A stretch of DNA of 52,856 bases from a virus, in the IMG/VR virus record IMGVR_UViG_3300042691_021002, positions 1-52,856 of that record; one strand, 5' to 3'. Below, piece by piece: positions 21,881 to 25,274 of this stretch. Numbering within the stretch: position 1 is the first letter of the stretch; every line of letters starts with the position of its first letter. The notes under the pieces were generated by a model. That model was given only the letters and a program-made list of their open reading frames with translations, had not been told where the DNA came from and did not search any database. The position numbers and the translations under genes were made by a program.

Positions 21881-23419
21881 ATGAGCAACAACATCGCTAG
21901 CCAGATTCGGTTCTACAATCGTCGTGGTGTGCCTATCTTGGCTATCAACTCGGCAGACCCCATTACTCTCCTGCGTGATACAGTGCTTGCACTGGAAGAC
22001 ATGGCAGTGCTTCGGTGGGACACCGTGACAGGTATCGAACTCGGAACAAGAAAGGTAAATTATTCTGACCTGGAGGAGCCAACGGATGTAAGCAAGTCTG
22101 CCTGGGCAACTCTAGGTGAAATCATTAAGAATCTTCCAGACGGGCAACGCAAGAATGCAGTTCAAGCTAACTACCAAATGAATGGCAAGGGTAGCCTTGA
22201 CTCTGTTCTCAACACGCTGTTCTTCTGCCCAGACAGAACAATCGTATTTGTACAGCACTGCGATCAGTTACTGAATCAACTCAATGCTCATGCTGCACAG
22301 CAAGCAATCATGAACCTGCGAGATCGATTCGCTCAAGCGGGTTGTATGCTGGTACTGATCGACAATGACATCGTACTACCTGAGTGCCTACGTAGTGATG
22401 TGATCGTCATTGATGATCCATTGCCTACCAGAGACGAGATCGAAGAGTCAGTGCTAATGATTGCCGAGAATAGTTCGATCGACATCTCCGAGCAGGTCAA
22501 TGCAACTCTTGGGTCTATCGTGGATGCAGTGGCAGGCTTGCCAAAGTTTCAAGCTGAGCAGGCTCTTGCTCTCTCATACACTGCGGACGGCTTTGACTTA
22601 CCTACGCTATGGCGAGAGAAGAAGAAGCTAGTAGATCAGGCCCACGGCTTGTCGGTTCACTATGAGGGTGTAGGCTTCGATGGCGTAGGCGGCTTGCTAG
22701 GTATCAAGAATTACTTTCATCGATTGATGAATGGGCCTAAGCCACCACAGTTGATCGTGTGGATCGACGAGATTGAGAAGTCAGGTATTGCTCATACTGG
22801 CGATAGCAACGGCATCAACGCTGACGCATTGGGTTTGCTGCTGTCACACATTGAGGATCACAATTCCTACTGCGTATCACTTACGGGACTTCCTGGTACC
22901 GGCAAGTCGTTGGTAGCCAAGACTGTTGGTGTTGAGTTCAATCGCATGGTGGTACGCTTAGACATCGGTGCTATGAAGGGGTCGTATGTCGGTGAGTCAG
23001 AAGCCAGACTGCGGGCTGCTCTGCGTCTAATCTCTGCTCTGTCTCAGGACAATGCTATGTTCATTGCAACTAGCAATACCGTCTCTGGCCTAGACACTGC
23101 TCTGCGTAGCCGCTTTGTCGACACCTTCTTCTTTCCTCTACCAACCAGCGAAGAACTGGCTCCGGTATGGGAGATTCATAAACGTAAGTATGGCATGTCA
23201 GGCGATAACCCCGAAGATACTAATTGGGTAGCCCGCAATGTCAAGCAGTGTGTAGAGCGTGCCTATAGGCTCGGCATGGACCTTGAGGAGGCAGCAGAGA
23301 CAGTGATACCTACTGGTGTTGCCATGTCTCATGAGGTCAGCAAGTTGAACGAGCAGGCACACGGTCGATTCTTGTCAGCAACCACTGGCTTCCGCTACGA
23401 ATACGAGGGAGCCTTCTAA
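21881..23419 (+). CDS. Ycf46-like AAA+ ATPase with permuted Walker motifs
   Basis: 512 aa. N-terminal domain (about 1-250) has the RecA-like 'GVPILAINSADPITLLRD' start of Ycf46 proteins. The C-terminal ATPase has its motifs in unusual order: LIVWIDEIEK (Walker B-like, 291-300) comes before GLPGTGKS (Walker A, 336-343), which is followed by MKGSYVGESEARLR and then directly by sensor 1 FIATSN (394-399) and LRSRF (about 408-412). In ordinary Ycf46 the IDEIEK strand lies between VGESE and sensor 1; here that segment is absent there. All catalytic residues remain. Substrate unknown; it follows the DUF1257/DUF2997 gene that pairs with Ycf46 elsewhere. Confidence 0.8.
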   Translation: MSNNIASQIRFYNRRGVPILAINSADPITLLRDTVLALEDMAVLRWDTVTGIELGTRKVNYSDLEEPTDVSKSAWATLGEIIKNLPDGQRKNAVQANYQMNGKGSLDSVLNTLFFCPDRTIVFVQHCDQLLNQLNAHAAQQAIMNLRDRFAQAGCMLVLIDNDIVLPECLRSDVIVIDDPLPTRDEIEESVLMIAENSSIDISEQVNATLGSIVDAVAGLPKFQAEQALALSYTADGFDLPTLWREKKKLVDQAHGLSVHYEGVGFDGVGGLLGIKNYFHRLMNGPKPPQLIVWIDEIEKSGIAHTGDSNGINADALGLLLSHIEDHNSYCVSLTGLPGTGKSLVAKTVGVEFNRMVVRLDIGAMKGSYVGESEARLRAALRLISALSQDNAMFIATSNTVSGLDTALRSRFVDTFFFPLPTSEELAPVWEIHKRKYGMSGDNPEDTNWVARNVKQCVERAYRLGMDLEEAAETVIPTGVAMSHEVSKLNEQAHGRFLSATTGFRYEYEGAF

Positions 23420-23955: not shown

Positions 23956-24298
23956 CCAGTATTGTGGGCAGACGGGAGAAGCCAGTGATTTAGTTGGTAT
24001 CCCTGGAATCCACATTGAGTGCAAGCGTGTCGAGTCTCTTAATATCAACGCCGCTATTACGCAGGCAGTTAGGGACAGTCAAGGAAAGAACTGTCCTGTA
24101 GTCTTCCATCGCAAGAACCGCAAGCCCTGGCTTGTTACGTTCCGACTGGATGACATCATTGACTTCATCACTACTATTAGTCGAGCAATTCCCCATGTCA
24201 ATCAATGCTGCCAACAGAGTGCGACTATTGAATCTATTGCGCCGGATGTCGCACGTAATTCCCAGTGTTTCCCCAAAGGAAGTGCTAACCAAGATTAA
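23855..24298 (+). CDS. PDDEXK-type nuclease, putative Holliday junction resolvase-like
   Basis: 147 aa. KGKVGERELKEELNR gives E15/E17, 'SQYCGQTGEASDLVGIPG' gives D45, and HIECKR gives E55-x-K57: the E...D...ExK core of PDDEXK nucleases, followed by 'AITQAVRDSQGKNCPVVFHRKNRKPWLVTF', the usual QA-helix and strand of phage Hjc-like resolvases. Likely acts on branched or recombination intermediates. Its 5' 101 nt and 3' 104 nt overlap the genes on both sides in other frames; the last 35 residues look unstructured. Confidence 0.75.
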   Translation: MGKKINGCQKGKVGERELKEELNRILGTTTRRTSQYCGQTGEASDLVGIPGIHIECKRVESLNINAAITQAVRDSQGKNCPVVFHRKNRKPWLVTFRLDDIIDFITTISRAIPHVNQCCQQSATIESIAPDVARNSQCFPKGSANQD

Positions 24299-25274
24299 GC
24301 TTGTATTCGGGCAGGATAGTCTTGAGATAATTGGGACCGATCTCAATCAGAATCTTAAGATCACAACGCCATGCGAAAGTGACGAGCCTGGAATAGCTTT
24401 GGTTAGCTACGAAAACCTAAAGGCAATTATCTCCAAGATGTCTGGAGAGATGATTAACTTTAGCTTTGCTCAAGGCAAGGTAATTGTTAGTGATAACTTT
24501 AGCTCGTTTGAGTTAGGAGGTCACTGTGACATTGACGAGTTTCCTGGATTCGGCAGTTTTCCCTCATGCGAAATATTTAGTTTTCCAGTGGATAAGTTGG
24601 TGACGATCGTTGATTCGATTGCGCACTGCATGGACAAGGAATCTACTAGATACTCACTGGGATCTGTGCAAATTTGTGGCATTAGAGAGCAAGGGGTTAT
24701 TAAGCTCACGGCCACGGATGGCCGCCGCATTTCGTTGTTTAAGTCTGCCTGCGAAGGCATAGGATCATTCTCTGCAATGATTCCTCACAATGTAGTCAAG
24801 GCAATACCAGCAATCCTTGGAGGGCTGGATGGGGACTGCATGATTAGAATCGATCCGTCTTGGCTAATGATCGAAACTCCGCATATCGTTTATCTGTGCA
24901 GGCAATCAGAGGGAAGGTTTCCTAACTGCCAAAGGTTTGAGAAGCAATTCGAAGAAGCCAATCTTGTTGAGCTAGACCTTGCTGCCATGAGAGCTATTGC
25001 CAGCCAAGGCTTGGCGGTATCAGAGAACGATGAAACAGGATTGAGCTTGCACTTCGATGGTCAAAGCGTGACAGCTAGCCATCATACTCAGAAAGCCAAG
25101 TTTAGGGCAACGATTCCACTTGCTCACCCAGAAGCGTCGGTAATCGTCAACGCTCAGTATTTGCACCAAGCTTTATCTAACTGCAAGAGTGCCAGTCTAC
25201 AGGTTGTAGACAACACTGTAACTATTCAAAGGGACAAGGAAGTCTACGAATGCATAATGGGAATGGCAAAATAG
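24195..25274 (+). CDS. DNA polymerase III beta sliding clamp, second copy
   Basis: 359 aa from ATG 24195. Clamp hallmarks: 'MDKESTRYSLGSVQICG', KLTATDGRRISLF and 'QSEGRFPNCQRFE', in the same order as the first clamp. The two proteins are clearly diverged, not a recent duplication. The C-terminal pocket strand reads YECIMGMAK instead of a MPMRL-like end, so partner binding may differ. A second clamp in one phage is unusual; it could be specialised for another polymerase, or form a mixed ring. It starts within the nuclease gene and overlaps the next gene by 25 nt. Confidence 0.85.
   Translation: MSINAANRVRLLNLLRRMSHVIPSVSPKEVLTKIKLVFGQDSLEIIGTDLNQNLKITTPCESDEPGIALVSYENLKAIISKMSGEMINFSFAQGKVIVSDNFSSFELGGHCDIDEFPGFGSFPSCEIFSFPVDKLVTIVDSIAHCMDKESTRYSLGSVQICGIREQGVIKLTATDGRRISLFKSACEGIGSFSAMIPHNVVKAIPAILGGLDGDCMIRIDPSWLMIETPHIVYLCRQSEGRFPNCQRFEKQFEEANLVELDLAAMRAIASQGLAVSENDETGLSLHFDGQSVTASHHTQKAKFRATIPLAHPEASVIVNAQYLHQALSNCKSASLQVVDNTVTIQRDKEVYECIMGMAK

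Follow-up and report, generated by a model that had tools for sequence, protein, structure and literature searches.

A phage clade of Ycf46-type AAA+ ATPases with two exchanged core segments and a probably working ATP site

Introduction

The AAA+ core is among the best-studied folds, and Walker A followed by Walker B is the order assumed in annotation and in evolutionary models. The window analysed here (the whole stretch of 52,856 nucleotides of IMG/VR virus record IMGVR_UViG_3300042691_021002) encodes an ATPase, P0001, in which Walker B comes first. This raises the question of what kind of rearrangement produced such an order, whether the ATP site still works, and how widely the arrangement is found. 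A sequence-only reading of the window had proposed a circularly permuted core of probably preserved activity. Our analysis points with high probability to a different rearrangement, a segment swap with a working ATP site in a Ycf46-family AAA+ ATPase of the classic AAA clade, with a Vps4/p97-like core.

Results

Motif order of the window ATPase

The P0001 reading frame (21881-23419, plus strand) is open over 512 amino acids. LIVWIDEIEK at residues 291-300 and GLPGTGKS at 336-343 lie exactly where the sequence-only reading had put them, followed by YVGESE at 369-374 and the sensor 1 motif FIATSN at 394-399. The protein thus runs from Walker B (WIDEIEK, 294-300) to Walker A, VGESE and sensor 1, which is not the collinear order of a Ycf46 core. 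Profile searches return it in pieces: Pfam AAA matches at 4.9e-17 in two stretches, the best of them covering profile positions 3-54 of 131, and phrog_8638 matches at 5.6e-42 in four. The blocks and motifs are given in Table 1, together with the neighbouring genes.

A separate acidic Walker B was looked for after residue 343. No second acidic strand was found between Walker A and sensor 1 of P0001, in agreement with the sequence-only reading, which had reported none between VGESEARLR (YVGESEARLR from 369) and sensor 1. Few residues separate the Walker A block from the sensor 1 block in the HMM alignment, leaving no room for a hidden Walker B strand. The sole acidic strand end of this stretch, VVRLD (D361), was considered as a displaced Walker B and rejected, since beta 2 of ordinary Ycf46 has the same conserved ending (consensus LLRLDVG).

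Table 1. Features of P0001 and its conserved neighbours in the window (HMM, profile of ordinary Ycf46 proteins unless otherwise stated)
Feature	Coordinates	Strand	Evidence
DUF3150-like helical protein, 322 aa	19581..20549	+	ATG start probably 19650; conserved partner
DUF1257-like/DUF2997 fusion protein	20552..21163	+	DUF2997 at residues 149-192, 6.3e-8
88-aa protein, family unassigned, conserved in the module	21166..21432	+	Homologs in 8/13 loci; 4.5e-26 with an HMM that leaves out the window
Segment-swapped Ycf46-type AAA+ ATPase P0001, 512 aa	21881..23419	+	Open ORF; Pfam AAA; phrog_8638
Block N, residues 1-290: N-terminal region and GG box, usual place	21881..22750	+	HMM 10-256 = residues 4-281, E 2.1e-22
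Moved block b3-a3, residues 291-331, with Walker B	22751..22873	+	HMM 334-374 = residues 291-329, E 8.8e-7; predicted strand 291-295, helix 312-326
LIVWIDEIEK, Walker B (D296, E297)	22751..22780	+	D296, E297, K300 invariant in 88/88 aligned rows
Block b1-a1-b2-a2, residues 332-390, with Walker A and YVGESE	22874..23050	+	HMM 277-333 = residues 333-389, E 2.5e-20
GLPGTGKS, Walker A (K342)	22886..22909	+	K342 invariant in 88/88 rows
YVGESE, second conserved Ycf46 motif, residues 369-374	22985..23002	+	Sequence
Block C, residues 391-512: sensor 1 strand, arginine finger and lid, usual place	23051..23419	+	HMM 375-493 = residues 391-491, E 1.7e-9; N399, R411 invariant in 88/88

Two inner segments are exchanged

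As a reference for block order we used a profile HMM built from 109 ordinary Ycf46 proteins (530 positions, with Walker A at 280, Walker B at 337 and sensor 1 at 380). All 109 match it as one collinear domain each and none in the swapped order (0/109), a result that checks order and not detection, given that the same proteins built the profile, and that agrees with the placement of Walker B after Walker A in standard Ycf46 by the sequence-only reading. The permuted proteins, on the other hand, align in four blocks which in chain order cover approximately positions 10-256, 334-374, 274-333 and 376-510, while the linker preceding b1 (positions 257-273) is absent. The search for further proteins of this order, suggested in the sequence-only reading, was fruitful: the four out-of-order blocks are found in 14 of the 14 members of our first set and in all 74 scored proteins of a wider scan. 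The spacing of the motifs presents the same division, with Walker A 39-46 residues after Walker B in the permuted clade, in contrast to 56-57 residues before it in ordinary proteins; by this measure the first-round relatives fall into two kinds, at 56-57 residues before and at 41-45 after Walker B, with no values in between.

Judged from these alignments, two adjacent inner blocks, b3-a3 and b1-a1-b2-a2, are exchanged, and both domain ends are unmoved. The exchange is non-circular, because the N-terminal region and the part from sensor 1 to the C-terminus stay put while the inner two blocks alone swap. A circular permutation of the whole AAA+ core, as in the circularly permuted GTPases, would join the old ends and open new ones inside the domain; it could equally produce a Walker B ahead of Walker A, and it is what the sequence-only reading had proposed. 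We consider it highly unlikely, since all scored members retain the GG box and N-terminal region ahead of the exchanged blocks, with sensor 1, arginine finger and lid after them (order N-B3-B1-C). No joining of old ends with new inner termini was found, the ends being unchanged in every scored member, and a circular permutation could apply at most to the inner sub-block from b1 to a3.

The window being an IMG/VR virus record, its motif order might also stem from faulty assembly or binning of the metagenomic contig. The identical order, however, is present on dozens of independent contigs and in the isolated phage Tunturi_3, whose genome record is complete, so that the probability of an artefact is negligible.

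Predicted structure of the reordered core

An AlphaFold model of the P0001 monomer, obtained with 11 family rows as input, has a mean pLDDT of 81 and a pTM of 0.74. Local pLDDT is about 88 at residues 291-300 and 91-92 at 331-360 (P-loop) and 391-400 (sensor 1). The model displays strands at 291-295, 330-336, 356-360, 392-398 and 414-418 and helices at 312-326, 342-352 and 372-388, so that the Walker B segment begins with a confidently predicted strand. Its ASCE core sheet and helical lid superpose on solved classic AAA domains (Z 15-16 and rmsd 2.6-3.6 over about 190-215 residues of Vps4, p97-D2 and spastin), and the closest predicted viral structures are ordinary phage Ycf46 proteins, for example that of Pseudomonas phage SM1 (TM 0.66).

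Folded likewise, an ordinary-order relative from a viral contig (L045) presents identical elements in the usual order. The P0001 and L045 models align to identical solved chains over 200 and 237 residues (4d82), 197 and 230 (6g2v), 201 and 242 (3cf0), 213 and 252 (3d8b), and 214 and 250 (6bmf), respectively. The deficit of 33-42 residues compares with a moved block of 39-41, and would correspond to the loss of this block in a sequential alignment if VIA-align is sequential, as we assume.

We infer that strand 291-295 sits between beta 2 and beta 4 of the sheet. Coupling maps of the permuted and ordinary families agree slightly across the moved block, an agreement that may reflect column conservation and does not extend to the strongest pairs, which are unshared; among the strand-strand couplings in the 88 permuted rows, b3-b4 and b3-b2 are slightly above those elsewhere. 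Along the chain, the N-terminal region leads into beta 3 (Walker B) and alpha 3; beta 1 (Walker A), alpha 1, beta 2 and alpha 2 come next, and sensor 1, the arginine finger and the lid complete the protein as usual. The reordered strands would regain their usual sheet places to form a normal ATP site. These places are plausible because, in the usual 5-1-4-3-2 sheet, each new connection links neighbouring parallel strands.

AAA+ proteins function as rings, and the monomer model leaves room for an exchange in which the moved strand-helix completes the core of the neighbouring subunit, giving a segment-swapped oligomer. All three new connections are short, with 7 residues leading into strand 291 from the helix before it, 3 joining a3 to b1 and 3 joining a2 to b4; this and the confidence of the monomer model in the moved region make such an oligomer very unlikely.

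Conservation of the catalytic site

D296, E297, K300, G336, G339, K342, T397, N399 and R411 do not vary in any of the 88 permuted rows of the alignment, which represent about 80 distinct proteins, and the complete Ycf46 motif set is present: Walker A, VGESE, the W(I/Y)DEIEK Walker B, the sensor 1 Asn and the arginine finger. Residue 341 (window 22901-22903), the last glycine of the Walker A pattern GxxxxGK, is less constrained, being Ala in 40 and Ser in 5 of the 88 permuted rows, whereas among the 109 ordinary proteins about one (L062) has Ala there. Ala or Ser at this position may be tolerated, or even preferred, by the reordered site. With this glycine replaced in roughly half of the members, ATP hydrolysis may be slow in part of the clade.

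The same substitutions (45/88 rows) would fit a reading in which the WIDEIEK of residues 291-300 is a leftover or decoy, the protein being a non-hydrolysing AAA+ (a scaffold) or using another acidic residue as Walker B. This we find unlikely: D296, E297, K342, N399 and R411 do not vary despite pairwise identities that go down to about 26% in the first set, which is the pattern of a selected active site; the 291-300 segment aligns with the ordinary Walker B block; and no alternative acidic strand fits. The conserved residues argue for a normal ATP site and hydrolysis in the permuted proteins, which we regard as likely, in line with the active fold that the sequence-only reading had expected from the retained motifs.

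Extent of the permuted clade

From the first scans of IMG/VR, GTDB genomes (among the matches listed) and GenBank phages, the permuted set comprised P0001, nine other viral contigs, gp103 of the phage isolate Tunturi_3 and a contig whose bin is assigned to Myxococcales (L070); with two viral contigs added later, this set comes to 14. A wider scan used a 13-row alignment as query and retained the best 80 of 208 related loci. The order N-B3-B1-C was present in 74 of the 75 loci where the motif filter picked a protein; in the exception, L228, the filter had picked the adjoining AAA gene, and its own match is permuted. Outside the filter, L191, L260 and L261 proved permuted on re-examination, while L262 and L266 contain the other three blocks, with the Walker B block unscored. 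With some of these loci duplicating earlier contigs, the best 80 of 208 relatives and the first set together amount to about 80 distinct permuted proteins. The adjoining gene of L228 (4547-6310), directly downstream of the permuted ATPase gene, encodes a second, different AAA protein of ordinary motif order.

No other permuted member was found in a sample of 284 genomes from the phylum of the L070 bin, which together with its phage-type neighbours suggests that the L070 contig is viral. The scanned permuted members match phrog_8638 and general ATPase families and have no PHROG of their own. Searches of 5.39 million open-access PMC papers brought up neither a permuted AAA+ protein nor a permuted Ycf46 protein. 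The best reading of the sequences is a rearranged, apparently phage-specific sister clade of Ycf46 rather than ordinary members of that family. The sequence-only reading had mentioned a similar order in some phage AAA proteins and thought of a poorly described clade; the clade is indeed distinct and apparently undescribed, but much wider than that wording implied.

Origin of the swap

In trees of block-reordered sequences (reordered for alignment only), the permuted rows fall on one side of one branch with an SH-aLRT of 100. The N-terminal region, which holds none of the moved blocks, places them likewise with a support of 100, both with 13 permuted rows and with 87 against 108 ordinary ones. 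The permuted proteins being thus set apart by a single branch even in trees free of the moved blocks, one event suffices, and the swap probably arose once. The nearest ordinary-order relatives, grouped with the permuted clade at an SH-aLRT of 100, are found on a contig binned as Bacteroidota (L073) and on two viral contigs (L045 and L046); unlike the permuted clade, all three have Walker A ahead of Walker B. L073 has a module like that of the permuted loci (DUF3150-like 2.7e-58, DUF1257-like 7.9e-42, DUF2997 1.3e-9), while L045 and L046 share with the clade a shortened arginine-finger loop, which in the permuted proteins has lost two residues relative to ordinary Ycf46 (LLRKGRFD to LRRF). No duplicated or intermediate forms were found among the 109 ordinary proteins. 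A likely route would be a tandem duplication of b1 to a3, after which the outer copy of each part was lost.

Neighbouring genes

The 322-residue DUF3150-like protein has a homolog in all 13 permuted loci examined, and lies within 3 kb of the ATPase in 71 of the 80 wider-set loci (best 80 of 208). Its relatives beside ordinary Ycf46 genes match DUF3150 (PF11348) at 1.9e-9 to 1.6e-24, and the window protein scores 2.2e-52 against a family HMM built without it. The DUF1257/DUF2997 fusion proposed in the sequence-only reading is solid in its DUF2997 half; the DUF1257 half is weak, reaching 7.6e-5 with an HMM of its counterparts that leaves out the window, and is unmatched by Pfam. In most records DUF1257 and DUF2997 proteins lie close to the permuted ATPase, and in the window they are fused. 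The DUF2997 consensus of the permuted loci has a conserved GKACKSLTASLEKALG stretch with a single cysteine.

About 45 cellular loci also have DUF2997 close to an ordinary Ycf46 gene, so the partnership of the ATPase with DUF2997 probably predates the swap. Three cellular contigs (L097, L101 and L108) contain two closely spaced, co-oriented ordinary Ycf46 genes of unequal length in the vicinity of DUF2997 genes. No function for DUF1257/DUF2997 or DUF3150 was found in the open-access PMC literature. In Synechocystis there is a gene cluster DUF2997-ycf35-fed7, of which fed7 is a ferredoxin gene (PMC4284462).

Among the other products encoded in the region are a clamp loader, two sliding clamps and a nuclease of RusA/PDDEXK type, a content that hints at early or middle expression. 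The sliding-clamp genes (DnaN-like, phrog_947; 9.3e-45 and 1.4e-32), at 18418-19581 and 24132-25274, flank the region, and two per phage are unusual. A short clamp-loader-like AAA protein (214 aa, 6.2e-19 to phrog_168) is encoded at 17547-18191, and a protein resembling it is present in the corresponding neighbourhood of L070 (2480-3130).

Discussion

Taken together, we think it likely that a non-circular exchange of two segments, fixed once, founded a widespread phage clade of working ATPases which form, with DUF3150, DUF1257 and DUF2997 proteins, an undescribed module. A ring of the permuted ATPase would hydrolyse ATP and, with these partners, remodel or translocate a protein early or in the middle of infection. 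Such a remodelling or translocase role is usual for the classic AAA clade, and we rate it, from family and neighbours, as plausible, about as likely as not.

The clade offers a natural test of how much rewiring a P-loop fold tolerates with its catalytic residues all kept, and an ordinary-order near relative with matching gene neighbours is available for comparison. Since profile searches show such proteins as fragments (two stretches with Pfam, four with PHROGs), others may be hidden. The conserved phage module of AAA+, DUF3150, DUF1257 and DUF2997 is, moreover, partly common to cyanobacteria and other bacteria.

Comparison with known systems

Ordinary Ycf46 proteins, such as gp100 of Mycobacterium phage Firecracker, other phage members (phrog_8638) and those of many bacterial genomes, are homologous to P0001 over the whole length, including the N-terminal region that precedes the AAA+ core in P0001 and the other full-length permuted members. 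Their GG box, Walker A, VGESE, WIDEIEK, sensor 1 and arginine finger are identical in kind, and DUF2997 and DUF1257 neighbours occur there too. What distinguishes the permuted clade is the exchange of two core segments, the absence of the b1 linker and an arginine-finger loop shorter by two residues.

Vps4, spastin and p97-D2, of the classic AAA clade, have a core fold that is alike according to the model, and act in membrane and protein remodelling; unlike P0001, they present the usual motif order and other N-terminal domains. The circularly permuted GTPases RsgA/YjeQ and YlqF are likewise P-loop NTPases with an altered motif order and a retained site. In them, however, a whole GTPase domain is circularly permuted, whereas the phage clade presents an internal segment exchange in an AAA+ ATPase.
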